Source: Ianthella basta (Eukaryota > Porifera > Demospongiae > Verongiida > Ianthellidae). Taken from it: a stretch of DNA of 64,000 bases. Where the stretch lies: the NCBI GenBank assembly GCA_964019415.1, contig OZ025879.1, forward strand, positions 2,856,794 to 2,920,793, given 5' to 3'. Position 1 is the stretch's first letter. Every line of letters begins with the position of its first letter. The notes under the pieces were generated by a model. It had not been told where the DNA came from, made no database searches, and saw only the letters and a program-made list of their open reading frames with translations. Both the position numbers and the translations under genes were made by a program. Positions 32,715 to 64,000 of this stretch are shown here, piece by piece.

Positions 32715-34802
32715 ATGATGAACGGAGCTGATCTGGACAGATTAGCTTTCCGTCATCGGCTGATGCAAGTTTCGGAGCAGCTCGAGAGCGATGACGTACG
32801 CACGCTGAAATCCCTCTTTACCCGGAAGCTAACGGCGAAGAAAAGGCACACTGTGACGGAAGGATACGAGCTGTTCGCCGCTCTCGAAGAAAAGGGAGAA
32901 TTGACAACGGATGAATATAGTGGAGTGCTTAGGGACCTGTTCGAGACCCTTGGACGAGACCCAGAGTTGTGTGTGGCCGAGTTTGAGAAAGGTTTGGCGG
33001 AATCTCGGAAAGCCCTGTCTGCTGTTCCTCATATCTGTACTTTGACCAGGGATTCGCCGGAAGACCTGTATGAAGCCTATTCGCAGTGTCTCGTTCATCT
33101 GGGCGACAATCTTGCACGGGAAGATGGAAGCCTGCAAAAGGTGGTGTACATGTGTCCTCAGCTGCCACTGAAGTATCTAGAGGCCATCCAAGACGGGCAC
33201 GCCCTCTTCCGCAAACTTGAGGAAAAGGGTTTGATTCGGTGCTGGTGTCTGTCCTACCTGTACGTGTGTTTTCTTGCAGCTGAGCGGATTGATTTGTGCA
33301 ATGAAGTTGAGCAGCATAGTGAATTGGCAAAACAAAGGCTTTTCCAATCAAGTGCTCCTGAATGTGTGAATGGTGGTAGATTTCCCTCACTCTCCTTAAA
33401 GTGGCCATGGAGACGACCCCTGATTTCGTCTGAGCAGCCCATCAGTGTTGAGGATGTGCAAGATTCGCCCCACCCTGCTGGCAAGGGAAGCTTATCAGGG
33501 GCATCAGCCAGTAGGATCACTGTCTTTGACCACAGATTGTACTGTTGGATGGAGGCTGCGCTATCCAGCAAGGTCATATTTGGCATCCTAGCATTTGCCA
33601 TTTTGCTTAGCTGTCTGCTGTCAGTCGTCAACTATCCCATAGACAAGGCTTTCTGCAACGGTTACACGGCTACACACAATTTGCTAGCAAGACTTACTGT
33701 ATGTGGCACCATACCATCTTATGTCATCTGGCGAATATCAAGGACCATCACCAGGAGCAAACTGAAATCCTGTAAGCTGTTGAATCGAGCTTGGAATGAG
33801 GAGTATTGCAAAGTATTTGAACGGATTATCACCAGTTTGTCAACGAATAATGAGGACAATGATCTTGAAGGTAAATCAACTGTGGAAAAGGTTAACACCA
33901 TTCTCACACGGAAACTGGTATCCGTTACTGTGACCTCTGTAGTGCAATCAGCAGTTTCTGCTATAGGATTCTTCTTGCTGCATGCAGCCAGCTGGTACAC
34001 ATTTGCGGGTCTGACAGACACAGTCACACGATGCTTCTGCCTCATCATGATTCTAGCCTATTTTGCAACCAATGCTTTAGTGGGGGCTGTTCTTACACTG
34101 TACCTGTTTGAGATGCGAGTCCGTGAGTACCTCCTTTATGTCATCCACTACTCGGGAAAGAAAGTACGGCCACTCTGTGATGATGCACGTGAATTGAAGA
34201 AGGTGCTAGATGAGCGATGGTGGGAGATGAACATTGCCTGGAAGATTCCCTCCTTCTTCTACCTTGCATTGCTTGCATCCAGCCTGTACTTCCAAGCTCC
34301 CTTTTTCTGCGCTGGCGGCAAGACGATTTCATTCACTGAGGATGACCTGCAGGACCTGCCTCGCTATTGGCTCTTCTGGGTGATCATAAGCTTCGTCGGC
34401 TACATCTTTGCGTACAGCTACTGGACCTTCATCTATGGCCGTATAGTGGCCATTGTGACATTGATAGTGGACATCTTGTTTGTGCTTCTCATGCGTGTGG
34501 GCAGCAGCAGTTACCCGAAATGGGCTGGCCTCACGCATATCGTAGTAGTGCTGTGCCCGCTTGCAGCCCACTTGTCTACTCACTACATCGCCTGTGTCCA
34601 CATCTGGCTGCAAACCCATTTCCGACTGAAGTCCCCGGGACAGAAATCACAAGCTATTCTACCCGTGTTTCAACTAGCTGTTCGTAAACCACTGTTTGTT
34701 TTGAATTTTGTGATGTGTCTGTCCCTTGTTACTCTGTCTGTCTGTACTTTAGTTAAGGAGTATCAGTCGCTGACCACCTTTTCCAATTCCACAGCTTTCT
34801 AG
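32715..34802 (+). CDS. Tandem death effector domain protein with polytopic membrane region, gene 1
   Basis: A single uninterrupted frame of 695 aa. Residues ~8-92 form a death effector domain: FRHRLMQVSEQL, SDDVRTLKSLF, YELFAALEEKG and LRDLFETLGRDPEL follow the DED helix pattern of FADD and caspase-8. Residues ~115-205 form a second DED with LFRKLEEKGLI and the RxDL signature ERIDLC. A Ser/Pro linker (~206-280) leads to a membrane module with hydrophobic helices near 286-306, 322-340, 402-424, 437-466, 509-528, 551-570, 574-595, 604-632 and 658-680. No signal peptide is visible, so the DEDs should be cytosolic. DEDs polymerise by homotypic contact in apoptosis and immune signalling; the role of this membrane-bound form is unknown to me. 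It is followed by a closely related gene (36831-39245) on the same strand. The start is the first of two adjacent ATGs. Confidence 0.85.
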   Translation: MMNGADLDRLAFRHRLMQVSEQLESDDVRTLKSLFTRKLTAKKRHTVTEGYELFAALEEKGELTTDEYSGVLRDLFETLGRDPELCVAEFEKGLAESRKALSAVPHICTLTRDSPEDLYEAYSQCLVHLGDNLAREDGSLQKVVYMCPQLPLKYLEAIQDGHALFRKLEEKGLIRCWCLSYLYVCFLAAERIDLCNEVEQHSELAKQRLFQSSAPECVNGGRFPSLSLKWPWRRPLISSEQPISVEDVQDSPHPAGKGSLSGASASRITVFDHRLYCWMEAALSSKVIFGILAFAILLSCLLSVVNYPIDKAFCNGYTATHNLLARLTVCGTIPSYVIWRISRTITRSKLKSCKLLNRAWNEEYCKVFERIITSLSTNNEDNDLEGKSTVEKVNTILTRKLVSVTVTSVVQSAVSAIGFFLLHAASWYTFAGLTDTVTRCFCLIMILAYFATNALVGAVLTLYLFEMRVREYLLYVIHYSGKKVRPLCDDARELKKVLDERWWEMNIAWKIPSFFYLALLASSLYFQAPFFCAGGKTISFTEDDLQDLPRYWLFWVIISFVGYIFAYSYWTFIYGRIVAIVTLIVDILFVLLMRVGSSSYPKWAGLTHIVVVLCPLAAHLSTHYIACVHIWLQTHFRLKSPGQKSQAILPVFQLAVRKPLFVLNFVMCLSLVTLSVCTLVKEYQSLTTFSNSTAF

Positions 34803-35364
34803 TGGTATTTATGTCATTTGTATCCTATGCGTTATGTACATTTTTATATATGATACATATGTGTGCTATTGTATTATGTTCATATGGTGTTATATTTATT
34901 CTATAACAATATTTTCACATTATAATTATGTGCAGTGGTGTCATGGTTTCTTGTATCATGTCCCATGTACACATTTGCAATGCATGGAGGTGTATGTGTA
35001 TGTCAGTCAATTCACTCAGAGTTCCATTATCGATACATGACGGGATGCAGAATCCCTAATATACTGATAGCATCATAGACGTCGACAGTTGAGACCACAT
35101 CTATGCCTGAAGTGGACTGTATGGCTTCATGCATACGTATGTATAATATGGTACTGTCCATTCCATAGTAGAGACACTAGTAAATATAAAGAATGATCAC
35201 ATCTGACCAGATCGAAACCCAAAATTAAAAGAAAGAATGCTAAACCCCAGTCCTGAGGGCTTAGTCTGGTGTCTATGCCACATATGATTATGTGAATCTC
35301 ATCGATATCCCTTGCATAAATAATACTTGCCTCAATTATATATTCATTCCCCTATTTATAATGA

Positions 35365-35520
35365 CAGTGGAACCTGTCTAAGATGGTCACTGTGTTAGGC
35401 AGCCACCTCGAAACAGCTAGCCTCCCTGGCTCCCATTGGCGCTAAAACACTGCAGTCTACCTCTGTAGAGTAGCCACCTCTCTATAAAGTTCAGTTAGAG
35501 CTGGCAGTTAGAGCACTTTC
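35365..35520. mobile_element. CAGTGGAACCTG MITE, copy 2 (right end degraded)
   Basis: Begins CAGTGGAACCTGTCTAAG and shares internal blocks (gcagtctacctctgtagag, gccacctctctata) with the copies at 27090 and 39445. The right terminus is not recognisable. Confidence 0.6.
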
Positions 35521-35716
35521 CTGCTAGCTCTATGGCACCCACTGACACACCCACCCCCTCCCATACTCAATGATTTGTACTTCTTTGGTTTCTTGTATTA
35601 CAGCTGAAGACCTACGGATCAAAACACCCTGTGACCTATTGAGGTTGATGCTGTGCTTAAAGCTCACTAATTTGCCCAATTTCATCGTTACCTGACCACA
35701 CAGTATGAATCTCTTA

Positions 35717-35808
35717 GTCTGGCCTGCAAGACAGTCCCGTAAGTGCCCAGTAGGCGTGTTCCCTTCCGTGCCTACTGGGCACTTATGGGATGGTCTAGCA
35801 GGCCAGAC
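35717..35808. mobile_element. Foldback MITE flanked by TA
   Basis: Ends GTCTGGCCTGC and GCAGGCCAGAC are inverted repeats. The inner arms (aagtgcccagtaggc and its complement) are also paired. TA flanks both ends. Confidence 0.7.
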
Positions 35809-35937
35809 TACAAATCTCTATGATATCATGACCCATACAGAAACATGCACAGTACTGATGATGGAGCTGGATTCGATTGCTAGACTCTGCAGGTATTTAT
35901 TGTTCAATCAATTGGGACTAGTAGTACAGCCTATAGG

Positions 35938-36206: not shown

Positions 36207-36830
36207 CTTATAGGGTGCAGGAGTTGGGATCAGAGTTAATTCATGCCATAATATAGCTAGTACCATCCAGTACAGCTTAGGTAGAACTATAGAGTCAAGC
36301 AGAGTCATGCTGGCCCTTTAATACATGCACTAGACTGAGAGAGATACAGCTAATATCTGTTCTTGCACCATTGAGGAATTGTTTCTTCCTAAGGTCACAT
36401 GGCATGGTCACATTTAGCTGTGACGTATACACATGGCAGCTATAGCTAGCTAACTCCCTGGCCTTATTGTAGGCTACAGAAGGCAGCCAGCCTCATCAGT
36501 CTCCAAATTCTAGACAGAGCTGCATAAAGATGGCCATCTGTCCAATAAGTCTCTGAACCTGCAAAATCTATGAAACAGTGACCTTGCCACCAACAGTGGA
36601 TCACCCAGCAAGTATATAACAACAGCAGGCTTGTTGAGATTGCGCGCGTTATACAGGTATTCGCATCTGGTCTAATGGCTTCTTGTCTTTGTGTGGCCAC
36701 TCCTGGTCGCCCTTTAAGTTTCCACTACACGTGCACCTGTGCCATAACAGGAATTTGTTTACATGCCCATAATTATACATGCGACCTCATGACCGCTCGT
36801 GACCTCTTCAATACTGTAGGTTGGAATAAA

Positions 36831-39245
36831 ATGTCTGCTGTCGGGGAGTCTAGAAAGGGTAGCACCAGCCCCAGCACGGACACCAAACCGATACCTTTCC
36901 GTCTTCGTATCCAATTGCTGAATTTGTCGCAAAAGCTCAGGAACGAAGACAACCAGCGAGACACCGAATTGGACGTGATGAAGTCGTTCTTTCGGAACAG
37001 AATGCCGGCGGAGCAGTACAACAACATCACTAAAGGTTACGAGTTGTTTGCTTACCTAGAGGAGAACCACTTAATATCGGAAGACAACTTGCAAGCTCTG
37101 GAGTTGCCTCTTGGTGAGTGTGGACGGGGCGGCACGCTGGAGAGATTGTTGCGAGAGGGCGAAAGCGAGTCGGTAGGCTGCCCGCTTAGAGGTGGCGTCA
37201 TGGCAGACCTGGAGGTGTACAGCCCGACGGACACGTCCAAGGTGGAAGAACCCTATCGTCAGTGCCTGGCCCGCGTCGGTAACAGCATCGCTACCAGCGA
37301 CGGATCACTCGCCGAGCTGGTGTATTTGTGTCCAGAGCTTCCCCTCAGCTACTTGGATTCAAAGAAGGTGAGCAATGCCCACGAACTCTTCCGCCACCTC
37401 GAGCAAAAGGGTCTCATCAGTTGTTGGAAGCTATCCTACCTCTACTGTCGCTTGTGGGTCCTACAGCGAAAGGACCTCTGCAAAGAGGTGGAACAGTATG
37501 TGGACAAGGCACGCATGCGCAAGCCCCACATACCAACTCTTGCTGAAAGGACGTCCCAAGATTTTGTGCGATCCTACTCGTACCCAGAGGGAGTGCAGCC
37601 TAAGTCCAACCTGCTGAAGGCCAGTCAAGTGGATTCTTTGCCAGCATCATTGCCAAGATTGAAAAGGCAGGACAGTATAACCCAACAGGACAACACTGGT
37701 CCATGTGTCGGCATGGACAGAGAAGGGACTGAAGGGCAAGGAGGAGGAAGAGATGCCGATGTCGAAAGTACTGATGGTCCTCTTGTCAGATATCCGCCAG
37801 ACGACCCCCATGCGATCCCATGCCCTGAAATCGACAAGCCAGTGGTACAACAGTCTAGAGTTGTCGATGTAACGCAAAATACAGATCAACCGAGGCATCG
37901 AACTGGAACATCAAGTGAGCACAAGAGGCATTTGCTGCATACTAGGCTACCAGATGCCCCTGGCGCAACCCCTGACATTGCATTTTTGAACAAGAAGGTT
38001 TACAAATGGCTGCAGTGGTCACTGTTGTGGAATGTGACCTATGGTTTCTTGTGTGCTCTGATAGCCCTTGTAGCTGTGATGATGGTCGTCAAGCTACTAC
38101 TTGAACTTTCCATCTGTGACTGCGGCACAGCTGTGCTGAATCTAGTTGGCAGGGGTGTCACCCACTTGGTCGTTCCCACCATCACCATCCACATTATGGT
38201 GCAGATAGCGGAGGACCCTGATGTGGGCAAAATGCGTATACTCTACACCTCACGTGAAGCTGAGTTGGTTTTTGAAGCTGTGATTGAGAAGCTCTCATCT
38301 CACAAAGAATTAGAGCAGCTGACGAAAATATCGTCTGTAACAGAGAAAGTGAACAACTTGCTGAACTCCAAATTGTCCTCAATCATGGTAGCGTCTCTCC
38401 TACAATCAACCATTTTCTTTGCAGAGCTGGCATACATAGGGGCTGCCAACTTCCCGCACTTTGAGGGACTAGCCAGTCATGTGGCCGCTGTGTGTAGACT
38501 TGTGCTGATTTTTGGGGCCTTCTTCATCCACCTTGTCACAGGGGTAGCAGTGTGCCTGTACCTGTTTGAGATGCGCCTACGGGAATACCTGGCCCGCGTT
38601 GTGGATGAGGCACACAAGAAGCAATTGAAGTCAGTGGAGCAGGATGCTAAAGAGGCAAGGAAGATTATTCTGAAGCGGTGGAGCACTTTCCAGACTGTGA
38701 TGACCTTTTTGTCGCTGACACATATACTTTTGTTGATGTACAGTATATGGTCTGCTACTCCTTTTCGTTGCTATGGCGACAGTGTCACATTCAATGAAGA
38801 AGAACTGAAGCAAGTCCCATTATCTTGGATTTTGTGGATCATGATTAGTCTGCTCTGTCATGCTGGGGTCTACAACTGTTTCGGCTTCACCACTGGCCGT
38901 GTTATTGCAGTTTTCCTTCAGCTGTTCTCCATGTTACTCTGTCTGATGGACAAAACCAGTCCCAAGTGGGGGCTCATGATACAGATAGCCAACGTCGTCT
39001 ACCCGTGTGCTTCTCTCTTCTGGATCCATGTGTTGGCTTGTCGTAGCATCTACGTCAAGGCAACCTTGAGCCACAGTAGAGAGAACTGCAAACACAAGCA
39101 TTGCATATTGCTCGTGTACAATCTCTTAACTCATGTCCGCTTTCTGTTCCATGCTATTATTGCTGTTGTTATCTTTTTCGTCGTGCCCATAGCTGTATAC
39201 AGGGAACACACACTTTTAACTAAAGGTGTTCACCCTGTGCGTTAA
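36831..39245 (+). CDS. Tandem death effector domain protein with polytopic membrane region, gene 2
   Basis: An intronless frame. I start it at ATG 36831 (preceded by ataaa, followed by the conserved region), giving 804 aa. An upstream in-frame ATG at 36675 would add 52 Cys-rich residues without similarity to gene 1. Residues ~22-110 resemble a DED (FRLRIQLLNLSQKL, YELFAYLEENHLISEDNL), with a degenerate final helix. Residues ~138-225 are a second DED with LFRHLEQKGLI and the RxDL motif QRKDLC. The linker (~230-385) is longer than in gene 1. The membrane module has hydrophobic segments near 400-425, 440-460, 515-537, 552-578, 620-640, 665-684, 688-706, 715-740 and 768-790. Motifs shared with gene 1 include YLFEMR(V/L)REYL, EKVN-LL and SPKW. 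The membrane topology and death-fold placement imply a receptor, channel or scaffold that recruits DED partners; this is inference. Confidence 0.85.
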   Translation: MSAVGESRKGSTSPSTDTKPIPFRLRIQLLNLSQKLRNEDNQRDTELDVMKSFFRNRMPAEQYNNITKGYELFAYLEENHLISEDNLQALELPLGECGRGGTLERLLREGESESVGCPLRGGVMADLEVYSPTDTSKVEEPYRQCLARVGNSIATSDGSLAELVYLCPELPLSYLDSKKVSNAHELFRHLEQKGLISCWKLSYLYCRLWVLQRKDLCKEVEQYVDKARMRKPHIPTLAERTSQDFVRSYSYPEGVQPKSNLLKASQVDSLPASLPRLKRQDSITQQDNTGPCVGMDREGTEGQGGGRDADVESTDGPLVRYPPDDPHAIPCPEIDKPVVQQSRVVDVTQNTDQPRHRTGTSSEHKRHLLHTRLPDAPGATPDIAFLNKKVYKWLQWSLLWNVTYGFLCALIALVAVMMVVKLLLELSICDCGTAVLNLVGRGVTHLVVPTITIHIMVQIAEDPDVGKMRILYTSREAELVFEAVIEKLSSHKELEQLTKISSVTEKVNNLLNSKLSSIMVASLLQSTIFFAELAYIGAANFPHFEGLASHVAAVCRLVLIFGAFFIHLVTGVAVCLYLFEMRLREYLARVVDEAHKKQLKSVEQDAKEARKIILKRWSTFQTVMTFLSLTHILLLMYSIWSATPFRCYGDSVTFNEEELKQVPLSWILWIMISLLCHAGVYNCFGFTTGRVIAVFLQLFSMLLCLMDKTSPKWGLMIQIANVVYPCASLFWIHVLACRSIYVKATLSHSRENCKHKHCILLVYNLLTHVRFLFHAIIAVVIFFVVPIAVYREHTLLTKGVHPVR

Positions 39246-39853: not shown

Positions 39854-41185
39854 TTAACTGAATGAAAATAGCCTGCTCTTCTTTGGCAGTGTTCCCCCAT
39901 TGGCCATTGCTTTCTCCACCTCCTCCAGAGGGGGTGCGTGTTGGAGGTCGCCCAGAACAGCTAGAGAAGGACGAGAGTGCAGCATCTTCTCACCAATTCG
40001 GGCCAAGTCTGCAGCTGTGACTTCCTCTGTGGGATGAGGGGGAGGGAAGGGGGCAGGGAGGAAGAGGGGGGAGAGAAGGGGACAGGGAGGGAGATGGGGG
40101 AGGGAAGGGGACAGGGAGGGAGAGGGGGGAGAGAAGGGGACAAGGAGGGAGAGGGGGGAGGGAAGGGGACAGGGAGGGAGATAGGGGGAGGGAAGGGGAC
40201 AGGGAGGGAGACAAGGAAAGGGAAGGGGACAGGGAGGGAGATGGGGGGGGAGGGAAGGGGAGAGGGAGGGAGATGGGGGAAGGAAAGGAGGCAGGGAGGG
40301 AGATGGGAGGAAGGAAGGGGACAGGGAGGGAGAGGGGGGAAGGGAAGGGGACAGGGAGGGAGATGGGGGGAGGGAAGGGGACAGGGAGGGAGATGGGGGA
40401 AGGGAAGGGGACAGGGAGGGAGATGGGGAGAAGGAAAGAGACAGGGAGGGAGATGGGGGGGAGGGAGATGGGGGAAGGGAAGGAGGCAGGGAGGGAGATG
40501 GGAGGAAGGAAGGGGACAGGGAGGGAGAGGGGGAAGGGAAGGGGACAGGGAGGAAGATGGGGGGGAGGGAAGGGGACAGGGAGGGAGATGGGGGGAGGGA
40601 AGGGGATAGGGAGGAAGATGGGGGGGAGGGAAGGAGACACAGGGAGGGAGATGGGGGGAGGGAGGGAAGGGGATGGGGGGAGATGTGAGGAGGGAGTGGA
40701 CACAGGGGGTCAAGGGGGAAGGAATGGGATGGTGGCTGGGATTAGATGAAAGGAGTAATGCATCTGTTTGATCACCATCTAGCTGACTAGGTATGTTGAT
40801 GGAGAGACAAACATTGTGACTGTACTGCTTAAACAGAATCAGAATGTGCGTACACCGACACATGCACTCCGGTAGACGCCTACATTAGTCAGTATCAACT
40901 ACAGGCACTGTAATGTGAGTATACCCACCTATCTTGGCACACAGCTCTTCTGCTGAAATCACTGCATTGTACTCTAAGACTTGCCTGCAGATGGGGAAAC
41001 ACATCAGTGAGTGCATCAACACGAGACACAGCTCCAGTGTATCATCTATACCACACTGCAGAGCTGTTATACTGCCTGTTTAGGTGCATATAAGAACATG
41101 AACATGTGTATGACAAGGAGTGCATGCAGTTGTGCACATCTGAGTGTGCGAACGCGCGTGCGTGTGTGTGTGTGTGTGTGTGTGT

Positions 41186-45505: not shown

Positions 45506-48500
45506 CTAATACTTCTCCAGGGCAGTCTGGACGTTTGACTGGATAATGGAATACTCGCTGAGAAAGCACACTGATATAGCTGTGCACAGTAGTACCATTA
45601 AACCAGCCATCATGACAATTCGGCCGCCATGTTGCTTCCTCACACCTGGCGGCTTGGCACGCCTCACAGAGTTCTCCTGGTGGAGCTTGAGCCACATGAA
45701 CCAAAACAGGTATGCAGAGGGTATGATTGGATACAAGATGTGTAGCACACCTCCAAGCGCAGGGGGCTGGGAGATGTACAAGACGATCACACCACAGAAC
45801 TGAAACAGAATCCCAATAGATCGATACGGTGCACTGCTGTGGGCAGTTGGCCATACACAGGTGGACAGGAAGTGGCAAATGGTGAAGAATGCCACAAAGC
45901 AGAACCAGTGGAGGTGAGCATGCTCTCCAGTCACTTGTGCGTTCTTGATGCCACTGATGGGCTGTCCTGATGAAGCAAATAACATGAGTGCCAGGATATA
46001 TATTTGGACCGACACTAGAATCAATATTTCACACTCTCCCCATTTGTTGTTGAAACGATTAACCGCATTCTTTCCTGCTTCTGTTAGCTTCTTTGATGGT
46101 TTCAGTTGGTACCAATGGGCAAAATCCACCAATTCCACAGCTGACCCAACAAGACGATGCACAGTGGCCTCATGGTAGTAGACAGAGGAGAAAATGCCAA
46201 TGAAGAGAAGCAAGAGAAAGTAGTATGTCATGTTAAGCAGCTCCAATGGCATGTACAGTGAACAGTCGAGAGGGAGCGAATAGTCACTTGGTGAAAATTC
46301 CGTTATTCCAATGCGTACTAAAGCAAGGGTGACAAGGAATGCTTCACAGATGGCCGTGGTACACATCATGTAGAACTCAGATGCAAGCTGTTGGGAAAGT
46401 TCCTTAAGAATTGTGCTATGGTCCTTATCCGATACTCCCTGGTTCCAAAAGTGTGCTATAATCTTCTTCAGTGCAGGCCCATTCACCTTCTTCTCAATTT
46501 CTCGTCTAAGGCTGATTGCTGGGGATACACCATCAAGTCTTCGAGCCATAGCATGAGAAGCAATCCCAAGTAAAAGAAGTGGCAACAGGCAGAATGTAAA
46601 GAAGCGAAGGAAGATGGACAGCAGCAAGAAGAACCAACCTCTGACTGAGTGGCGCTCTGTTGCTTGCTTGTTGATGAGTAGCACACACAAAACTATGTTG
46701 ATCCACAGTTGCAGAATGATTAAGGCCAGCAATCCTCCAATGACAACATTCTTCAGCAGGTTGGATCCAAGGTAGTTATATGGCCAGTTCCGGCTTGTGA
46801 CAAAAAGGGGCCCTGACTTTGGTGGTATGACAGATTGATTCAATGGGTGGTCTGCTTCTGCGGGCTCATCATCAGGTGAAGACATATTGATTAGGTTTTC
46901 AGGTCGTACAGGAGCTTTGCTAGGACTATTAGCAAGTGGGTCTGCATGTGGATCTGCAGGGATTAGCAAGAAAGGGATTCTACATGAACATGATTCTACA
47001 TGAACAAATATATAAGCTTAGACTAATTATAACTAGCTGCCAACTATATGTACTGGGGGGGGGGGGGGGGCTGGGGTGGCTAATAGCTATAAAGTTTCAC
47101 ACTCATGAGACATATAATATTCTAGTGTGTGCATGCATATATGGAAGTTGTAATACACACATTACACAACTTGGGCCAATGTACAATTCTTGAGCTAAGC
47201 ACAAACACAGCATACAATCATAATCACTTCCTTAAAGGACAGTATGTTTTGATCAGTGCACCTTCTTCAGCTATTATAGAACATAGCAGAATGTGACCAT
47301 AATAGGTATACAGGTTGTCAATAAGGGCATGAAGTCCATTAGAGGTTGACAGGAGGGATCTATGATCACGCAAGCACTAGGAAGGCACGACCTTGCGACA
47401 CTGGACTACAACACATTAATAATAATAAAAAATAGATGCCTTGTGACACTTAATGACACACCTATATCTTCTCATTCAAGAAGTTGTGCTGCCTTCCTTT
47501 CTGTACCAGCTGAGACCTAGCTATGTATTCAATTGAAATTGACTCTGAGACTTAAGTTCAATGACTTACTCTATCATCAATCAACATCACATTGCAGTGA
47601 TTCTCTATGATGCAGGGCCGTCGGAGGCAATTTAGAAGTGGTAAGGCCATTGGGTGAAGGATACAAAATGTCGTGAGTGGAGCGAGTGAAAAAATTTTTT
47701 TTAGCTACTTTTAATTATCATGCAGATAACGTTTGCTACAGATCTGTGCCTCAAGAATGGTGATGCCTTTGCTAGCCCAGCATGCACTCTCGATCAGTCA
47801 GTAAGTCGTTTTAATTATAAGAGGGTTACATAGATTTCACAATAAATCATGTACTTGTTTTGCATGCATTGTCTGTACACAGTATATATAATATATTAAT
47901 GAATGAAGCCATATCAATATTTCCACAGATTAGCAATTCCTGAAAACCTGCACAAGGCTGATGAGGCTTGTCACCTATTGTCGGCATTCTTAGGTCCACG
48001 TGCCTCGACGATAAGGCCATTTTGAATTGTTACATCACCATTAAGGGTATAGCAATTCGCTGACGTGTGGTGCTACAAGCCATGCTTCGTAGCGCCAGAT
48101 GATGTGGGTCTATTGGTGCGAGAAAACAATTGCCTATGTACTCGCTGCTGGCCTCCATCTTTATTACGTTTTGAATCGATTACGTAACAAAACATGGCGG
48201 AAGAAAGGAGCGTGTTTGTAAATCGTGAAGTATTGGACCCTACTTGATATCTCCGGTTTCATTGCATCTGCTAACAACCTAAGATCATTGCTTCCTTTGC
48301 TTCCTCAACGGTTAGTTAGGGTAGGGTAGGGGTTATCTGGTTTAGTAGCTAAAAACACTGGTTTTGAAAATTAATAAAAACTGCTAGCTGTTCAAAAAGT
48401 GGTACGGCCATGGCCGTACCGGCCGTACCGCCTCCGACGGCCCTGCGATGTCATTATATATCACACTATACCGATGGTATATATTATTTTGGTATATCTA

Positions 48501-50756
48501 ACAGAGTTTACAATGCTTGGCAAGTTAACCAATTTCAATTAAGTAGTTCGAAACCAGTTTGGTGCAATTTCACTTGTAATGAAACCGGTTTAGCCCATGC
48601 AATGCAATCCAATTTAGATCCAACTCAGCTCATGATGTGAGTTAAAGCGTTTGAAACTGGATTGGCTCTTGTGCAATCGACGCAATGGTGATGACTTGAA
48701 CGGACAAGACTTTGCTGACAGTTTGGAGTACAACAGACTTTTGAAGCTAACTCAGGCAGAGGCGGTTTTAAATCAGTTTCCATTTGTCAATGAACACCTT
48801 GTAAGAAATGCCTGCAACAAATCTGCAATCACTGCAGCCGCTCTGCTACAGGATTGCCCAATCAGAGCCTATTGAGCACATGATACTCAACAACCACATT
48901 AACTACTGTAACTAAATGTACGCACTGTCACACTTACACAGATTCATCAGACTGGTAATAAGTGTTGTGAACCAAATCCCAATGGTATTCCCTCGTGGGA
49001 CTGCAGCTGGCCTCTTGCTTGGCTCAGCTGCATGGGGAAGGACGTATGACTTCATATAATATAATAATATACTACTACCATTAAACACTTAACAGTACGT
49101 ACAGTACACTAGCTACTGTATGCAGTGGATATCTTAAGGAGGGAGCTGTCAAATACACTTTATTGCATAATTATATCAAAAGTACTCGCTCTCTGCTTCA
49201 TGTTTTCCCTTATCTAGAAATGTGAGTGTGGGTTGCTTCAAACCAAAATGCTGGAACTCATACCTTTTCACCATGTTTGAATTTTGTGCAAGTGTATCAT
49301 TGCATGCTCATGGTACAGCAAACACACTGATTTTGTCTGCATGTACAGGGCTAATTTCTATTTTAATTTGACAGCAATGCCCAATTTCACATTTGTAACA
49401 TAATTCATCAGTATGCATGTAGTTACAGTTCAGACTGAAGCCAAACGGTCTATACATGCAGTTTTGCATGAGAGCTAAACAGCATTGGATGCACAGTCCA
49501 GAGGTAGGAATTATAATATGTAGCTATGCAGTTTTGTCTTCAGTACCAATCCCAAACCTTATACCAATTGACACTCACATGAACTGTCAGACAGATGCAA
49601 GCATACATATCACCATAGATGTGAACAAGACTAAGCACTCATAACAGGCTTGGTTACAGACTATAGCTATAGCCCCTCCTCATGCATCTTTTGGAGGTCC
49701 ATTTCATCTGGGATAGCTAGGTCTGGCACATGTCATACATCTAGTTGAGCAGGTCAACAGTGCATGCAACCCATGCATGCAGACTATGTACTATTATGTA
49801 ACCTGACACCGTATGTTAGCTAACAACAGCTGTCCAGCAGCAGCTATTTCACATTGTATGACTATCGTGCAGGAAAGGATGTTTGTTGCTTCTTGTATGT
49901 CATCCATGGTCTGTATTTGCACATGAATAAATTAGAACAAAATCAATGTACAAAAGTTGCAAAACCATGCATGCTTTTCTTCAGACACAACTTGGTTAAG
50001 TTGCATATTTCCCCATAATAGGCCTGGGTGTACAAGGCTACACACAGACATGCACAGACAGGTTATTCATGCAAAGATATGCCCTGACACAGGTCTCTAG
50101 TAATGGAACTTGACTAGTTGTATCACTCACTTCCTGTAGCAATGCATTCAATCTGGTCTGCCAAATCCTTCTGCCCATTGTTTTTAGCTGCATCAATCAG
50201 TTGCTTGAAGGTAGCTTGGGTGCCATATCTTTGTTGCCACATAAGAAGAAGTTGCCAAGTCTGCTCTTTCAGTTCATTATCTTGGTGCTGTACCGTTGCT
50301 ATGTCTCCATCTTTGAGACCCAGATGACGGAAGAACATTTTCCACCCCTTGCCAGGGAGTTTCTCATTCACATCCAGTAGTTCGTGATGTTCCGGCACAC
50401 GGAGGCAGTCCTCATTGTCAGAAGCAAGGGCTTCTGAAGTTTTACGATCAGGTAAATCCTGCATACAATGCACAGCAAGAAAACTGCCTACTATAAATCT
50501 ACCCATCCTCTTAATAGCTATCCTGAGCAAATTGGGCTAGCTATTTAAGCCACAGATAATGTAGCCATTTGATTATTGTGCAGGAACCTGCCCCAGTGCG
50601 TGCAACAGCTATCCACGTTTGGCACACGCACGGGGATGCGCACGTTCGTACACGTGGTATAGCTACTCGCAGACCCACGGTTAGGGAACCACGGCGTAGA
50701 AGAGTCACTGATACCAGCTAGCTACGGCTCTACCACATGACACTCACCGCCGACAT
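45506..50756 (-). CDS. Death-domain protein with polytopic membrane region, gene 1
   Basis: Four complement exons total 625 codons: 50748-50756 (MSA), 50131-50458, 48938-49027 and 45506-46953. Phases are 0, 1, 1, the same pattern as the next two DD genes. Residues ~28-108 form a death domain: LLDVNEKLPGKGWKMFFRHL, LKDGDIATV, TWQLLLMWQQRYG, ATFKQLIDAAK, DLADQIE. The second hinge exon (~113-142) encodes a mildly hydrophobic stretch (IGIWFTTLITSLMNL). The last exon encodes a Pro-rich linker and about nine hydrophobic helices (near 211-236, 248-274, 337-357, 379-401, 449-470, 490-510, 521-540, 541-565, 586-608). Characteristic motifs are YYHEAT and HFLSTCVWP. No signal peptide is present, so the death domain is probably cytosolic. 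DDs recruit other DDs in receptor and adaptor complexes; the ligand and partner here are unknown. The hinge exon is the least certain part. Confidence 0.82.
47613..48445. mobile_element. Non-autonomous DNA transposon with CAGGGCCGTCGGAGG ends
   Basis: Ends CAGGGCCGTCGGAGGC and GCCTCCGACGGCCCTG are perfect 16-bp inverted repeats 833 bp apart, in the last intron of DD-membrane gene 1. There is no transposase frame. The CAGGG ends resemble hAT elements, but I could not find a convincing 8-bp target duplication. Confidence 0.7.
48460..48900. repeat. Possible dispersed element rich in aaaccgg motifs
   Basis: This intronic segment shares short motifs (accagtttggt, aaaccggtttag) with the interior of the 22902-23372 element and with 50920-50940. 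Boundaries could not be defined. Confidence 0.3.
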
Positions 50757-52538: not shown

Positions 52539-55500
52539 TTATACAGTGGATATAGGTGTGGCTTCGATGATGGCATACTCACTGAAAATGGACAGAGTGA
52601 TTGCCAAAACCAACTGTGCCATCAAACAAATATAAATTCCCATGTTTCTTCGATGCTGTCGACTCCATCCCTTGGGCTTTGCCGATTGCAGTGAGTACTC
52701 GTAGTGCACCTTTATCCACAAGTACCAAAACAGGTAAGAAGCTGGCATGACTGCAAAGAGAATCTGCAGAAAGCTGCCAAACAGTGGTGGCTGGACAGAG
52801 TACAGAATTGCAAGGAGAAGCGCTTCAAGAAGGATCCCAGAGAAGCGACACTCTGTAGCACCAGGGGCAGACGGCCACACACAAGTTGACAGAAAATGGC
52901 CAGTAGAGAAGACAATGACAAAAATAAACCAGTATAAATGGATCTGTTCTCCAGGCACGTGTGCGGTGATGCCACAGCTAAGGGGAAGGCCAGCCCCTGC
53001 AAACAATAATAGGATAAAGGTATACAGCTGTACTGATAGGAAGATGAAGAATTCTGCAGCACTCCAGCTGTAGTTGAAGTTGTTCACAGTGTTCTTGGCA
53101 GAGGTTATGAGCTCCTTTGACGGCTCCACATTTAAAGTGTCGGCATGGTCTTCCAAAGCAACTGCTCCTGCAACAATACGGTTCATTGTAGCCTCATGGT
53201 TAAAGAAGGAAGAAATGATGCCCATCATTAAGATGAGAGCAAAGTAGGAGAGAGCATCCAGACCTTCTATCAGAACTTCCACCACTCCTCCAAGTGGAAT
53301 TGTATAGGCATCTAATGCAAACCTGGTTACACCCACTTGAATAAGTATTAGAGTGACAATAGCTGCTTCAACAGTAGAAGTAACACACATCACACCAAGC
53401 TCCTTTGCCAAATGGTGCGTGAGCTCTTGCAGAATCTTGGGGTATGTTTTCTTTGCCAATCCCACATCCCAGAAGGTATGGACAACTGCTTGAAGCACAG
53501 GCTCATTGTCTTGTTTGCTAATGAGTTTCAAGAAATCTGAAGAAAGGGAGGATGACTGAGTGCCTAGGTTACTAAGCACTGCACTTGAAAGGGCACAGAC
53601 TGCTACCAACGGCAGCAAGCCACGTGTGAAGAAGTACAGGAAAAATGTTAGAAACATAAAGAAGCCCTTCTGGGAGCCCACACAGGAATGCCTATTGGCA
53701 GAGAGATAGACACTGAATGCAAGTATCAGCATGGAGAAGAGCAGCTGCAAAATGACAATGAACAGCAGGAAGACCCTGATCAAGGTACCCAAGAACGGCA
53801 AACGATCCTGAACGTAATGGAGACATCGGTATGGCCAGAAATCCCTTAAGTTGATAACATCAGGCTCGGGTGAATGTGGGCTTCCCTCTTCTCTTACAGC
53901 AGGTGGAGTGAGGGGAGCATCTGGTTGAGTTGGAGCAGTTGCTGGTAATTCGGCATCTGCACTTAGGGAGTGAATAAGAAACGGTCGCCTAAGCTTCTTC
54001 CTCAAGGATATGGAAGATGCTGCATGAACAAAGAATACAATACAGGCAAACATGGATGAAAGAGAGCATGAGAATTATAATTGCCACGCGAGTTCAGATG
54101 CAGACCTTTGTATCATTATAATATATTAGACATATTATATTAGTTACTACTGTTTCTTTGTACATAAATTTTCGTGGACGGAGGCAATTGCAAAAATTTC
54201 CACACAACAAAATTTTCAACAATTACAGTAGATTTCTAGTAATAGAAATGATAAATAGTAATATTAGAGTAACAGAATTGGAGTCTTGCATTCACTAGCA
54301 TTAATGTACATCATTTCATTAACTCTTGCAGAACATGCATGCGTCACAGGGTTACATAGTGGGGGGTTGAAGTGGGTCTAGAGCAGTGTAGGGGTCCTGG
54401 GATCTGTGTAGTTATTTGTTGCCAGTTTCATGTTTGCCCTGTGCAATTCGCATGTGTCTTTTTCTTCTTGTGTGGGGCTGGTGCGTTATCAGTAAGGAAT
54501 ACGGGATTGTGTGTGAATATGTTGTATTGTGCATGTATTTATGGTTTTGTTCACCTGCATCTAATGGCTCGGTGATGGGGCTACCTTGGCAGCAGGGTTA
54601 TCTATACTGTTGTTCTGCCTCTTGGACATGGTTCTCTTTTCTCTCCTCGGAAGAATGTTCCTCTCTCTCCTTTTAGGTAGGAAGACAATTTATGTGAGGG
54701 CTTTATTGTTTGGTAGAATCTTTGTTGTATTGGAGGTATTTTTTGTTTAAAATTAATTTGAATTTGTATTCATTCTGTTCGGATTGGCTTTCTTTTCTGT
54801 GTGCATGCTTCCTGTGTTTGAGCATGCTATGTTACTGCCTTATCATGTGTTGTCGCTAGTAGGTGCCGGAAGGACACGTGGGTGGAACAAAATGGTGGTT
54901 GGAGGGAGGCCACACAGGTGTGCTGTAGAGGAGACCCACTGCGAAGGGGGTGCATTCAGCGCTTCGTATGCAAGCGTATTGTGTTGGGATAAGTGTACGT
55001 GTTGTTGCTCGTATTGTGTTGTCTGTGTGGGAGAAGTTGGTTTAGCTTCGGGGTTGTCCTGAGGCTTACCGGGGTTTTGAGTGGATCGATTGAGTGGTGA
55101 TTGGGGTTAGTGGTGTGTAGGAGTTGGGGATCTGTCAGGCTTGTTGTCATCGTGGTGTGGATGGTTGTCAGTCGGGGGTTCTGTTTGTTGTTGTGGCATA
55201 GGTAATTTGTGGGTTAGGGGCTATTTATAGTTGTGTGTGGATTCAGTGTTTGTGGGTTTTGCTCACTGCTCACTTTTGAAGCTAGGTGGTGTCGAGGTTG
55301 TGGTTCCAGGTTGTGGTTAGGGTAGTTGTGGTTTTAGTGGTAGTGGATGGATTTGTGCTGGGCTGAGTCTGGTTCAGTGTGGTGTGTACCAGTGGTGGCA
55401 TGTTGGTCGCTGAAGTGGGGTGGTTGTGGAATTTTCTTATCTTTGTCGTGGTGTTGTGTTGGCTGTTCAGATTGAGTATGAATTTGAGTAAGAAATAAAA

Positions 55501-56803
55501 ATGGTTGGCCGTTGCCTGAATGGCTGCATAATTATTGCTGTGAAGTGTTGATGGGACAGTGCATCACAGAGAGTTAGCAATGCGAGCAAGGGGCAGACAA
55601 ATTGCGACGTCAGATTTTGAATTATGTCTTCTTTGAAATGAGATTCACAAGTCTTACCCTCTTTATGCAGCAACTCACTAGAGAGCATCGTCAGCACATG
55701 ATGTAACCATAATACAGACCGCATGTGCCTGCGCTGAAGGTTCTGCACTTTAGTGCTCTTCATTAGTGTGTTTAGTGGTTCTAAAATGTGGAACTCACAA
55801 AGTTTTTCAAACACTCTATCAACAAAATTGCCCTGGCCATGGGAGTCTGCCTTTTCCTCATTTCCTATGTGTACAAGGCAATCATGACATGTACATAATG
55901 ACATTCTTCACTACCATAATACAGGTATCACACATTCATGTACAGATTAGACAATGCACAGTACAGCTTCACAGGATGTACACTGCACGTACAGATACAC
56001 TGCATGCCATACATACCTCCTTTGGAGATAGTCTCAATGTCCTTAGCCAACTTCACTTGTCCACTCTTCTTTGCAGCATCAGTTAACTGCTTGAAGCTTG
56101 CTTGATCTCCTTTGTCATTCGACCAGTAGCACAGGCACTGGTACTTCTGTTCCAAAGGGTCATATCTGTGTTGCTCTACTATAGCATCAATCTCACTGTC
56201 AGGGACGTCAATCTCACGAACAAACATCTTCCAATCAGTGCTTAGTTTGCGGGACACATTCATCAGCTCCTTGGTGGTGGGAGTGCGTGGAGACCCTTCA
56301 TTTCCACTCTGCAGAAAATGGTAGCCAGAAATGTGCTTCATATAATTATAGCTATATGAAGACAGTGCTCTATTCAGTGTATATTAGATCACCACAACAG
56401 ACTGTATCCTTAGTGAGGTATACGTAGGGTCTATGTCTCCGTCAAATCAAATAGCTATATTAACTCAGTGTATAGTAGCAACTGCTAGGTTTGGTCAGGT
56501 TTAGAATAATTAATAGTAGCTACATAGCTACGTAGCTAGCTATCAAGCTATCTGTAGCTACCAGCTACATAAAGGATGGAAGAAGTGGGCAGGAACAGGG
56601 TAATTGAGCCCTCCCATGGTAACTCTGAAGCTCAGTAATAAGTTTGATACAGTGATCATGGAGCCCTCCGCAAGTGCACACACACACACACACACACGCA
56701 CGCACGCACGCACACACACAACACACATTCTAGGATTGTGGCTAATAACATGAGATCATAAAACCGTGAAACGGTCATTTCTAACCTTTGAGGAGCTCGC
56801 CAT
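52539..56803 (-). CDS. Death-domain protein with polytopic membrane region, gene 2
   Basis: Four complement exons total 666 codons: 56786-56803 (MASSSK), 56017-56308, 55658-55864 and 52539-54019, with phases 0, 1, 1. Residues ~18-100 are a death domain (LMNVSRKLSTDWKMFVREID, DSEIDAIVEQH, SFKQLTDAAKK, KLAKDIE). The hinge exon is unusually long (~104-172), helical and Leu-rich (VFEKLCEFHILEPL, HHVLTMLSSELLHKE), versus 24 residues in gene 3. The terminal exon encodes an acidic/Pro linker, DFWPYRCLHYVQDRLPFLG, then about nine hydrophobic helices with FFNHEAT, HFLSTCVWP and SYLFWYLWIK motifs. The membrane exon is nearly identical to that of gene 3, which is transcribed divergently from 57261. Death-domain assembly at a membrane is inferred; the biological role is unknown. 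Confidence 0.85.
54360..55480. other. G+T-skewed segment in the last intron of DD-membrane gene 2
   Basis: About 1.1 kb in which the plus strand is strongly enriched in G and T (gtggttgtgg, ggggttagtggtgtgtagg) without simple repetition. The sense strand of the host gene is therefore A+C-rich. Minus-strand and plus-strand frames are short and show no recognised similarity. Confidence 0.5.
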
Positions 56804-57260: not shown

Positions 57261-60200
57261 ATGGCGGAATCTTCAAAGGTTAACACTATAGGGAATGACG
57301 TTGTCTAGTTAGCTAAAGAGTTGTCGATCTTAGCTAGCTCAGTAGCGATGTTCAGGACCCGGCTGCTTGGTCATGACTGGCACACAGTTTGGTGATAGAG
57401 AAAGTACTAGCGACAGTGGCTACAATATACAACTGCTATATATGTAATATTAAATTTGTTGATGCATGGGTATTGTTAGCTAACATGATAGCAGCTATGG
57501 CTAGCTATGTAGTTATACATGTTCCCCTCTGTCATTTAATATTCTGCTCCACCTGCAGAGTGAAAACGAAGGGTCTCCTCATGTACCCACCACTAAAGAC
57601 CTGATGGATGTGTCCCGTATTCTTACTACTGATTGGAAGATGTTTGTTCGTGAGATCGACGTTCCTGACACTGAAATTGAAGCTGTAGTAGAGAAGCATA
57701 GATTTGAGCCACTGGAACAGAGGTACCAGTGCCTGTGCTACTGGTTGAATGACAAAGGAGATCAAGCAAGTTTCAAGCAGTTAATTGATGCAGCAAAGAA
57801 GAGTAGACAAGTGAAGCTGGCCAAAGACATTGAAGCCATCTCAAAACGTGGTATGTCTGGCATGTGGCTAATGTATAGCAATAGCTATGTAACAACATCC
57901 TGCATGCTAAATGTGAAGCAGTTACCATGTATTCTAATTTTTGTTCATTATGCCTCTTAATGGCACATACAATGAAAAGTTTACTATTCAAAGTGTACAA
58001 AAATTAGAGAACATATGGTACAGTAGAGTGCACGTGTATGTCCCTAATCTGTGCAGTACAGGAAATGGGTGATCTGTAGCGCACGTATTTGATAGTGAGG
58101 TATGCAAACAATACTTTACACACAGGAAATGGTGGCAGGGCAGAACCTCAGGGCAATATTGTAGAGAGAATTCTTTCAAGACTATTACTACGAATTGGTG
58201 AGTATACCATACTACTTACCGGTAACTAGTGCTTGACTACTTGTTGCCTTTGTGGTAGCCTAGCTTGTAACCTGCATTTCATTGTATATAGCTGCAATTA
58301 CATAATCAGACAGCACGGTAGTGCTGTCTATGTAGGGATGGTGGTGGTTGTTTGTATGCTGTAATACAAACAAAAAGTAGCGCTACTCCTGAACAGAAGT
58401 AAGAGCCAGCGAAAGAAACCATCTATGAAGAAGGGAGGCTGTACAGTATTCAGAGCTAACTGTACTTCCAAGCGCAAGCGCACCGTCGGGTAGACAGCAT
58501 CGTTGTCATTTTCCGTGTTTTGTCGTCTTCTTCGTCTTCTTCTTGTTGTTTTTCTTCTTCTCCATCAGCTGTAGCTCACGAATGACAAGGATTAAGACAA
58601 CAATTCATTCGCAGTTCTTCTCGCCCCCTTCCTGGCTAGTGCCTTTTGTAGATTAGGGAATGCTTCAACGTAGTATGGCATGTGCCGATTCTCCGGTCTA
58701 AGGTGCTCATAGCTATGAGTCGCCATTTTCCCATGACATAATTAGCAACCGGTTGCAACCGGCCTGCATTGTTTGTTTCTCCGGCCGCCTAATCCTTTCT
58801 GTTGCGTTGCAATCATTAGTTTCGCAATGCGGTCAGATATTCCAGGGTGCATACGGGACATGCATATGCTTTGACCGCCATTCGCCCGTGCACCATTTTG
58901 GAGGTTCTCTACAGTCATGCCATTTGGCAGCCATTTTCACTTATTGCGCAATTGCTTCCGGCCACTATTTCCACGTTCGTTTGGCGGTACAGAGCTAGCT
59001 GTCACTTCTGGTTCCACTCCACAAGCATCCTGCATTCAAGGGTGTAGGTATAGTGCAGCTCTTTTGTATGCATGTAGGGGCCTGTGGTGTGGGTATATAT
59101 GTAGCTATAGCCAATATCCCTCCAGACAGTGAGTCAGAGTGGCAGCGAAATATGATTGAGACTGCGGGTGTTACTTCGTGACCAAGCCAGTCTTGCCTAC
59201 CGCCATGATTTCCTGAAGCAAGTACTTTTTGGGGGGCTACAGCCCCCTACCCCCCCCCCCCCCCCCCCGTTCTGCCGTCCTAGCCTTATCACAGCTAACT
59301 CTGCAACATGATAGCCTACCCAAACAGAAGTAATACATCTTGTACCCACCCACCACAGCCTACCCTAGGTTGCCCACCCAGCCACATCCCACAATGTGCT
59401 ACACACCCTGCCATGCATTCTGGGCATATTGATTCCTTTGTTGCCACTGTTGTTTGGAAGCCTTTCAGACCAGCTGTTGCCCATCTGAAATTTGCATTCT
59501 GTAAAAAGTCGAGAAACAAGGGTGTGTAAAAATATTTCCTCCAATAACAAGGGCAGATGTAGGGATGGTGCAGTGTGTCTCTGAAGGGCAAACCACCTGG
59601 CAGACAAACCGTAGAACAAGGAGGGCCGGTCCATGCAAAGAGAGGGGCCAGTTTGTCCACGCAAAACCCAGATCCTTAACATGCATTTGCTGACTTTGAA
59701 TACATTTGCACCATCCCTACATCTGGCAACATTTTGCTGTGCTTGCGGTCTTGCTACCATCACCTATTTCTCCACATGCATATTGTTATGCAATTATGAG
59801 TGTGCAATAACAAGCTAAAGGACTACTACACGTGACTAGAATTGAATGCTTATTCCAGTTATGCATCTTCTCATGTACACATCACCAAGCTGCATGCATA
59901 CACCCATGTACATGACTAAAGTGCTGATGAGAAAAGGCTGTACAGCTGTACCGCTGCCATTGGAATGCACGCTGCAGCAAGCAATGTAACTTGCCTAAGG
60001 GCATGCCATTGAATTTCTTTCCATGCACTCTCAATTCAATGGCATGCCCTTAGGCAAGTTACAATTGCTTGCTGCAGCGTGCATTCCAATGGCAGCGGTG
60101 CAGGTTCTGACCGGCTGTAACTTGCATGTGCTGGCCCAGAGCCACTGTAACTTGCACTGGTGGTCTTTTTCAATGACCAACTAGCGCAGATACTCTACTG

Positions 60201-61929
60201 GCACATGTGGGGGTGGCTACTGTAACTTGCACTGGTGGTCTTTTTCTATGACCAACTGACGCAGATACTCTACTGGCACAGGTGGTGGTGGCTGCGATAT
60301 TGTAACTTGCACTGTGTGGTGGTGGTGGCAGTGGTGTTTTTTTTCTAGAGCAATGGCGCATATACTGAATGCATGCATTGATATATATATATATATATAT
60401 ATAGCTGAAATTAGGTAGCAACTAGCATAAAGATAACAATTTATCAACATACACTTTCTCCTTCATTTCCTCTAGCTGTGCTCTTCCTTTATACAGACAG
60501 GAATTCAAAGAGGAAAGTTCAAATCAAAAGTGAAGAGGATCATGATGGAGAGCCATCTGACAATGCCCCGGCTCCACTCCCTGATGAAGATGATTTCCTA
60601 CCACCTGAGCATGATGGCCTAGACTTGAGTCATTTCTGGCCATACCAATGTCTTCATTATGTTCAGGACAGTTTGCCGTTCTTGGGTACCTTGATCAGGG
60701 TCTTCCTGCTGTTCATTGTCATTTTGCAGCTGCTCTTCTCCATGCTGATACTTGCATTCAGTGTCTATCTCTCTGCCAATAGGCACTCCTGTGTCGGCTC
60801 CCAGAAGTGGTTCTTCATGTTTCAAACTGTTTTCCTATACTTCTTCACTCGTGGCCTGTTGCCTCTGATAACAGTTTGGATTTTTTCAAGTGCAGTGCTC
60901 AGTAAACTAGGCACTTGGTCATCCTCCCTTTCTTCAGATTTCTTGAAACTCATTAGCAAACAAGACAATGAGCCTGTGCTTCAAGTAGTTGTCCATACTT
61001 TCTGGGATGTGGGATTGGCAAAGAAAACATACCCCAAGATCCTACAAAAGCTCACACACCATTTGGCAAAGGAATTTGGTGTGATGTGTGTTACTTCTAC
61101 TCTTAAAGCAGCTATTATCACTCTAATACTTATTCAAGTGGGTGTAACCAGGTTTGCATTAGATGCCTATACAATTCCACTTGGAGGAGTGGTGGAAGTT
61201 CTGATAGAAGGTCTGGATGCTCTTTCCTACTTTGCTCTCATCTTAACCATTGGGATCATTTCTTCTTTCTTTAACCATGAGGCTACAATGAACCGTATTG
61301 TTGCAGGAGCAGTTGCTTTGGAAGACCATGCCGACACTTTAAATGTGGAGCCATCAAAGGAGCTCATAGTCTCCGCCAAGAACACTGTGAACAACTTCAA
61401 CTACAGCTGGAGTGCTGCAGAATTCTTCATCTTCCTATCAGTACAGCTGTATACCTTTATCCTATTATTGTTTGCAGGGGCTGGCCTTCCCCTCAGCTGT
61501 GGCATCACTGCACACGTGCCTGGAGAACAGATCCATTTATACTGGTTTGTGTTTGTCATAGTCTTCTCTACTGGTCATTTTCTGTCAACTTGTGTGTGGC
61601 CATCTTCACATGGTGCCTCAGAGTATCGCATCACTGGTATTCTATTGGAAGGAGTTCTCCTAGTAATCCTGTATGTTGTTCAGCCACCACTGTTTGGCAG
61701 CTTTCTGCAGATTCTCTTTGCAGTCATGCCAGCTTCTTACCTGTTTTGGTACTTGTGGATTAAGGTGCACTACGAGTACTCACTGCAATCAGCAAAGCCC
61801 AAGGGATGGAGTCGACAGCATCGAAGAAACATGGGAATTTATATTTGTTTGATGGCACAGTTGGTTTTGGCAATCATTTTATCCATATTCAGTGAGTATA
61901 CCATTATCCGAGCCAACCCAGCTGTGTGA
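57261..61929 (+). CDS. Death-domain protein with polytopic membrane region, gene 3
   Basis: Four exons total 612 codons: 57261-57278 (MAESSK), 57559-57850, 58126-58197 and 60476-61929, with phases 0, 1, 1. Residues ~18-100 are a death domain (LMDVSRILTTDWKMFVREID, DTEIEAVVEKH, SFKQLIDAAKK, KLAKDIEAI). The hinge exon is 24 residues and ends Leu/Ile-rich (IVERILSRLLLRI). The terminal exon encodes an acidic, Pro-rich linker and about nine hydrophobic helices, nearly identical to gene 2 including FLPFLG-type entry, FFNHEAT, HFLSTCVWP and SYLFWYLWIK. Gene 2 and gene 3 are therefore an inverted duplication sharing one intergenic region. Sequence differences concentrate in the hinge, the linker and around TM2-TM3. 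Function is inferred only from the death domain and membrane topology. Confidence 0.87.
59553..59725. mobile_element. Small inverted-repeat element in DD-membrane gene 3 intron
   Basis: The ends cagatgtagggatggtgca and tgcaccatccctacatctg are inverted repeats. The gatgtagggatg core also occurs at the 17717 element, hinting at a related family. Confidence 0.6.
59950..60099. mobile_element. Foldback element
   Basis: Two arms of about 66 bp (accgctgccattggaatgca onward) pair almost perfectly around a 17-base loop, in the last intron of DD-membrane gene 3. Confidence 0.75.
60117..60320. repeat. Tandem repeat of about 76-bp units
   Basis: Units beginning tgtaacttgcactggtggtc and containing gcagatactctactggcaca occur twice, with partial units on either side. 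They directly follow the foldback at 59950-60099, which itself contains tgtaacttgc. Confidence 0.75.
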
Positions 61930-62780: not shown

Positions 62781-62822
62781 AAGTCCTTTCTCCTAGTTAC
62801 TAGGAGGCAAGCTCTTGTTGTC

Positions 62823-63518
62823 AGCTATAATTTAAACTACCCAGAGGGTTTCTTTATATACGGAAGAATTGAGAGAATTATAAATAACTGATTAGCAAAC
62901 CCACCACACTATGAAAACAGCCCCAACTGCAGACTGGGGTTTGGTTAGACCATAATCAGTGCAAGCTACAAGAGGATATATTCGGTACATAGACCCTCCC
63001 CGGCTCTCCGGCCTGCAGCTGTGCAATGCAGGTCACATTGGTGACATTGCACATTCTGTCAAAGTACAATTGTACCATCCGCACAATAAGCCTGCAAGGA
63101 TAGCTATAATTATAGGGTACTGTTGTTGGGGTTTACTACAAAATGAAGGTTCCAGGTGTAGATCTGTAGCTATATATGAATATAGAGCTATTATAGGTAC
63201 TTTAGTTCCAACTGTCAGCTGTGTGTGTGCATGTTAACGTTGCTTGTGTATGTGTGCTTATGATCATGAGTAGTGCATGGATGATGTGCATATCTATATA
63301 TGTCGTCCAGACGGCAATGTAGTACACTACCATCAGGAATGGACAGGGTGGAACATGTCCATTCACGACTATAGCTGGATATATAGCTCCAAGTTACGGT
63401 GGCCATTTTATAGTGGAACACGTGGTCTATACAATATAATCATAGCCTACCTCGTCCAATGTCACATAAACTTTTCTCCCGTATATAGAGAATCCCTCTG
63501 GATATTTTAAATTATATC
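62823..63518. mobile_element. DNA element with ~46-bp terminal inverted repeats
   Basis: The left end reads ataatttaaactacccagag and the complement of the right end ataatttaaaatatccagag; both continue into ggg(t/a)ttct-tatatacgg. There is no transposase frame, so it is probably a MITE. Confidence 0.65.
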
Positions 63519-63984
63519 TGGGGTTTGAAACAACCTAGTATATATGTTACACGCAAACCTCGAATCTGCGCAAAGCTGCAACCTCGGCCATGTGACTGGG
63601 AAGAACCTTGCCTTTACATTCTTAAAAGCACTGAGTAACGCACAGAGTAAAGCAGACCTCCTGAAATATCCTGGCACAGATCATGGGTGGGTATAGGATA
63701 TTCTACTAGTATATATAGAATTCTTAGAGGGATAAAACGCACCAAAGGGAAGAAGAGTATCCTAGTTCGTTTAACCCGGCCGAGGAGGATACCGGAAACT
63801 ATGACGGAACGGCTAGAGCATGCATATTCCTCGATCTTTGCATATGCATGCAGAGCTAAAATGCGGAACGGAAATTGGGCAACCGTGCGTGACCCACCCT
63901 GATGCTTTTGTTGGCCATTTTTCCTTTGTATAGAGTGTGACTAGCCACCTCCTTTCTGGTCGCATCATTAACCATTGCAAAGTA

Positions 63985-64000
63985 ATGGCGGACTCCTCAA
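63985..64000 (+). CDS. First exon of a probable fourth DD-membrane gene (truncated by window end)
   Basis: The final 16 bases encode M-A-D-S-S and the first base of the next codon. The first exons of DD-membrane genes 2 and 3 encode MASSSK and MAESSK and end in TCAAAG before the donor. The match in sequence (ATGGCG...TCCTCAA) and in its position downstream of gene 3 supports another family member starting here. It rests on 16 bases only. Confidence 0.5.

Follow-up and report, generated by a model that had tools for sequence, protein, structure and literature searches.

The seven-transmembrane ion channel (7TMIC) superfamily comprises the insect odorant receptors (ORs) and Orco, the gustatory receptors (GRs), the animal GRLs, the plant DUF3537 proteins and PHTF, and the insect odorant and gustatory receptors are ligand-gated cation channels. 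Death folds signal through clustering, as established for FADD and caspase-8, and are already known from single-pass death receptors and soluble proteins with death effector domains (DEDs). Here, we analysed a 64,000-nucleotide stretch of the genome of the sponge Ianthella basta (C12:2856794-2920793, hereafter the window), in which five genes, A to E, join DEDs or a death domain (DD) to a polytopic membrane module whose modelled fold resembles that of the insect receptors. Gene coordinates are given as window positions, and the genome searched covers 209 Mb in 96 contigs.

Several described proteins share part of this architecture. Trypanosome MORN-repeat proteins, called the first such fusion in the excerpted text of Benton and Himmel 2023 (PMC9998090), likewise place a cytoplasmic interaction domain at the N-terminus of a 7TMIC-like fold, but that domain consists of MORN repeats and the organisms are others. 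Oyster proteins with an extracellular domain, one transmembrane (TM) helix and a DED-TRADD-N arrangement (PMC8195603, excerpts) also anchor a cytosolic death fold in the membrane, but through a single TM helix and together with an extracellular domain. In the sponge Dysidea avara, NLRs that carry a death domain and in some cases TM segments (PMC12909245, excerpts) resemble the window family in the N-terminal position of the death domain and in local expansion; their core, however, is NACHT and LRR, neither of which was found by Pfam in the eight window pieces scanned. TNF-family death receptors provide a membrane-anchored cytosolic death fold and, by analogy, a model of a signalling receptor, but they have one TM helix after an extracellular domain, whereas here the death fold lies N-terminal to nine segments. 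Compared with the tandem-DED proteins caspase-8 and c-FLIP and with FADD and PEA-15, the window family has no caspase domain, and a polytopic module follows. Among the matches listed in our literature searches, whose scope did not extend to the 7TMIC survey of Himmel, Moi and Benton 2023, none describes a death-fold protein that carries this membrane fold, and Benton et al. 2020 (PMC7746228) contains none of six terms, sponge and death among them, for which its text was examined.

Single predicted products that unite death folds with membrane helices

Genes A and B can be read as fusions without any splicing assumption, because their death folds and membrane helices share one stop-free frame. 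The frame of gene A spans 32673-34799 on the plus strand (709 codons, start Met at 32718) and that of gene B spans 36582-39242 on the same strand (likely start Met at 36831). An earlier note, made from the sequence alone, had assigned a tandem DED to two genes and a single death domain to three. Indeed, Pfam DED matched two stretches each in A (E 1.1e-19, 70.9 bits) and B (E 1.9e-17, 63.7 bits) above the gathering score of 35.9, and Pfam Death matched exons of C, D and E at 55.9, 51.5 and 45.0 bits, all above the gathering score of 22.6. The DEDs of A and B are also predicted to form six-helix bundles, and the AlphaFold2 (AF2) model of A has a pLDDT of 84. An RxDL motif, which is part of the DED charge triad, is present in the second DED of all nine DED-type rows, and none was reported in DED1 of these rows.

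In C, D and E, the death-domain exon is followed 3' on the same strand by a membrane exon (Table 1). Their splice sites were picked by eye on the basis of splice signals and sequence conservation, and the gene models are predictions. In the predicted plan, an ATG exon with 3 or 6 codons comes first and the death-domain exon second (phase 0 to 1), followed by the linker exon (phase 1 to 1) and finally the membrane exon; the products, of 624, 618 and 604 aa, are open from ATG to a single terminal stop. All nine predicted introns have GT-AG ends, and the joined exons, first exon left out, contain 28-32 stops in the other two frames. An inverted match within the upstream region common to D and E revealed the predicted first exon of each. 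When 12 membrane exons were scanned for splice acceptors, candidates emerged in 7, all of phase 1 (8 sites), and the rule applied returned nothing in the other 5, C among these; of 7 further death-domain exons scanned for donors, 5 have a phase-1 donor (some also with other phases) and 2 have none. The single frames of A and B and the open predicted four-exon products of C, D and E agree with the claimed fusion of death folds to a polytopic module, and both the fusion and the identity of the death folds are supported by predictions and by sequence comparison.

The same note had placed the probable start of a sixth gene at the end of the window. An ATG exon does lie there, but the death-domain exon beyond the window (about 64836-65109 from window base 1) is frame-broken, being split over two frames, and profile searches over 204 kb counted from window base 1 found no membrane module before the next death-domain exons.

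Local expansion of the family and its relatives

Within the 204 kb, the membrane module matched 17 times (13 full-length copies besides the 2 DED-type ones, and 2 fragments), and the 15 rows obtained for the death domain represent 14 exons, one of them broken. Of the 15 full-length modules, 2 carry in-frame DEDs, 10 are immediately preceded on the same strand by a death-domain exon, and 3 have neither. Since the 709-codon frame of gene A joins two DEDs to a module and 2 + 10 of the 15 modules are paired, the pairing of death fold and membrane module is more than chance. For module M11, the 5' death-domain exon is 13 kb distant. For M08, M09 and M10, an unfiltered profile search found no nearby death-domain exon, except one before M08 past a decayed copy. 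These three modules (L024:3774-5657, L025:784-2295 and L025:5356-7287) carry a coiled-coil-like C-terminal extension after the last helix.

The long last introns of C, D and E (1.8-2.3 kb) and the choice of splice sites by eye might suggest that adjacent but distinct genes contribute the death-domain exons and the membrane exons. On the sequences, this seems very improbable: each of the three genes gives one open ATG-to-stop product with matching phases 0, 1, 1 and GT-AG ends, a same-strand death domain lies directly 5' of 10 of the 13 non-DED modules, and A, B and seven relatives keep the same domain order in one frame.

Whole-genome searches with the modules of A, D and M11 gave matches only at C12 2.89-3.32 Mb, plus one stop-containing fragment on C15, and a death-domain match lies 7 kb upstream of the C12:3.317 Mb copy, on the same strand. 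In the protein database, gene A had 8 matches, namely the near-identical P0001, P0002-P0007 at 63-65% identity and P0008 at 27% (97% covered). DED is precomputed in all eight, and the seven besides P0001 are full-length, which supports the existence of full-length DED-fused relatives elsewhere. The D module had 36 matches, two being the window's own D and E, and a profile search gave 46. In a tree of 50 rows, which has long branches and an arbitrary root, the 9 DED-type rows cluster (100/100), gene B grouping with A and P0002-P0008. Among the 12 of 14 paralogue pairs that could be scored for dN/dS, 11 lie at 0.14-0.42 and one short death-domain pair, with 8 changes, reaches 0.89; the remaining two pairs were saturated. 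These comparisons support constraint on the paralogues and local expansion of the DD form. The earlier description of a locally expanded, membrane-resident death-fold signalling family is supported in part.

Topology and fold of the membrane module

Membrane segments were assigned from a crude hydropathy threshold and the long helices of the AF2 models. Each predicted structure of the module has nine long helices, and the 18 hydropathy stretches above threshold were merged by eye into nine peaks, matching the upper end of the 8-9 helices estimated in the note. Helices 4 and 5 of the modelled module are long (46 and 42 residues), and its last helix (415-449) is unbroken. The first inner loop has 43 residues compared with 6-16 in the outer loops, and the later inner loops have 5-11 apart from helix extensions. 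The N-termini are hydrophilic and carry the death folds, and the first inner loop is K/R-rich while one inner loop is not; the N-terminus is probably inside.

Structure searches matched the 7TMIC superfamily fold, Orco included, across most of the module, and the models support an overall fold like that of the insect odorant and gustatory receptor ion channels. The likeness may extend to the long fourth and fifth helices and to the probably internal N-terminus; in the 7TMIC superfamily, TM4-6 are long and form an anchor, TM7 is split in two, the inner loops exceed the outer ones in length and the N-terminus is inside. In contrast to the seven TM segments of the 7TMIC superfamily, the window family has nine hydrophobic segments by crude hydropathy, together with N-terminal death folds and no detectable sequence similarity. 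A Pfam scan of 47 members gave no identity for the membrane module: 33 families appeared at E<=10, and among the 25 listed the matches other than DED, which was found in 4 of the 47 members, were weak and inconsistent. Neither the D membrane exon nor a family profile matched any sequence in the PDB, and a 7tm_7 search of the sponge's own genome gave two fragments below cut-off, neither within the cluster.

The module might instead be a membrane scaffold or transporter that anchors death folds without conducting ions, its OR/GR-like shape arising from convergence or AlphaFold bias. The nine segments and the missing sequence similarity are consistent with this, as are the weak Foldseek values and the first rank of a pyrophosphatase for D; Orco and other receptor structures were known when AlphaFold-type models were trained. 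However, for two distinct structure queries the 7TMIC superfamily entries rank together, far ahead of other membrane proteins, and the same listings show no other channel or transporter family of comparable closeness, so that we consider a scaffold or transporter unlikely.

A possible receptor-channel linked to cell death or immunity

As the best explanation, put forward tentatively and at slightly less than an even chance, we propose an animal gene family of receptor-channels that carry death folds on a 7TMIC-like module and are wired to cell-death or immune signalling. A and B carry two DEDs, and C, D, E and the majority of the other copies carry one DD; in both forms a linker connects the death folds to the polytopic module, and these death folds would face the cytosol. 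The proteins would assemble as oligomers, perhaps tetramers as in the insect odorant and gustatory receptors (tetrameric according to the excerpted PMC9998090). A ligand or membrane stimulus would then act on the membrane module, and the clustered death folds would nucleate a DED or DD complex, recruiting partners such as DD-bearing immune sensors or a tandem-DED caspase whose coding frame lies 1.5 Mb away. Eight DEDs would come together in a tetramer of A, and four DDs in a tetramer of D. Because a tetramer would cluster death folds and the genome has possible partners, the likeliest role is that of a membrane receptor triggering a DED/DD complex.

The main rival casts the proteins as effectors rather than sensors: DED/DD filaments of other sensors, such as DD-bearing NLRs, would capture them and open the channel, the ion flux being the death or alarm output. 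The anatomy is equally compatible with this, plant resistosome channels offer an analogy, and the genome is rich in death domains (at least 150 matches, of 437 candidates). Local expansion of the DD form is, however, more typical of receptors, and an effector role is to our minds a minority possibility. Within the receptor proposal, a branch of the chemoreceptor-channel fold could provide polytopic death or immune receptors in which the conserved DED subunits A and B are Orco-like partners of variable DD subunits, with a mixed channel that sets DED next to DD in the membrane and bridges DD sensors to DED caspases as FADD does, under ligand control and in an animal perhaps without nerves; this more specific arrangement is decidedly speculative.

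Should the module prove to be a channel, a single protein of a lineage without neurons would unite cell-death domains with the fold of insect smell and taste. The 7TMIC fold would gain a new role, an early-animal coupling of microbe or damage chemosensing to death or immune responses would become directly testable, and in this natural fusion the death folds would be expected to act as reporters when the membrane part oligomerises.

Candidate partners and other features

At C12:1.374-1.379 Mb, the tandem-DED caspase is encoded in one 712-aa frame (L036:3983-6118; Pfam DED 2e-37, C14 4.1e-57). Just downstream in this interval lie a tandem-DED exon (L036:6334-7017, 7.3e-34) and a caspase-like exon (L036:7249-8754, 8.9e-40), the latter reading FFFQLDQGD where the caspase reads FFVQACRGD, a difference in what we take to be an activity-related motif. 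From their sequences, these two exons may represent an inactive c-FLIP-like neighbour and are candidates for a single gene. A FADD-like candidate combines a DED match under the cut-off (C5:6342780-6342935, plus strand, 32.8 bits) with the genome's best death-domain match (C5:6345751-6345972, plus strand, 58.4 bits), 2.8 kb away on the same strand. Among the matches listed, other dense death-domain groups occur at C6:9.05-9.39 Mb, C3:4.58-4.75 Mb and C18:4.37-5.18 Mb.

Table 1 Positions of the death-fold membrane genes in the window
Feature	Position	Strand	Description
Gene A	32718..34802	+	Single exon (694 aa); tandem DED followed by disordered linker and 7TMIC-like membrane module
Gene B	36831..39245	+	Single frame, ~804 aa from likely start; tandem DED followed by linker and membrane module
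Gene C exon 1	50748..50756	-	ATG, 3 codons; predicted, GT donor, phase 0
Gene C death-domain exon	50131..50458	-	Pfam Death 4.7e-15; splice model
Gene C linker exon	48938..49027	-	Predicted, phase 1-1; splice model
Gene C membrane-module exon with stop	45506..46953	-	Family profile E 1.1e-157 (profile alignment includes C row); splice model
Gene D exon 1	56786..56803	-	ATG, 6 codons; predicted; inverted match to E exon 1
Gene D death-domain exon	56017..56308	-	Pfam Death 1.1e-13; splice model
Gene D linker exon	55799..55864	-	Predicted, phase 1-1; resembles E linker
Gene D membrane-module exon with stop	52539..54019	-	
Gene E exon 1	57261..57278	+	ATG, 6 codons; predicted; inverted match to D exon 1
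Gene E death-domain exon	57559..57850	+	Pfam Death 1.2e-11; splice model
Gene E linker exon	58126..58197	+	Predicted, phase 1-1; resembles D linker
Gene E membrane-module exon with stop	60497..61929	+	88% identity to D over 453 codons, dN/dS 0.28; splice model
Sixth-copy first exon	63985..64000	+	ATG exon like D and E; extends 2 bases beyond window

The gene intervening in the cluster, putatively PMPCA, has three exons that match Peptidase_M16 or M16_C. Elsewhere in the window, an exon of a RabGAP-TBC domain gene lies at 21750-22274 on the minus strand (E 1.1e-09), and minisatellites with units of 22, 25, 33 and 30 bases occupy 15536-16566, 25754-26326, 27815-28271 and 40031-40663, respectively.
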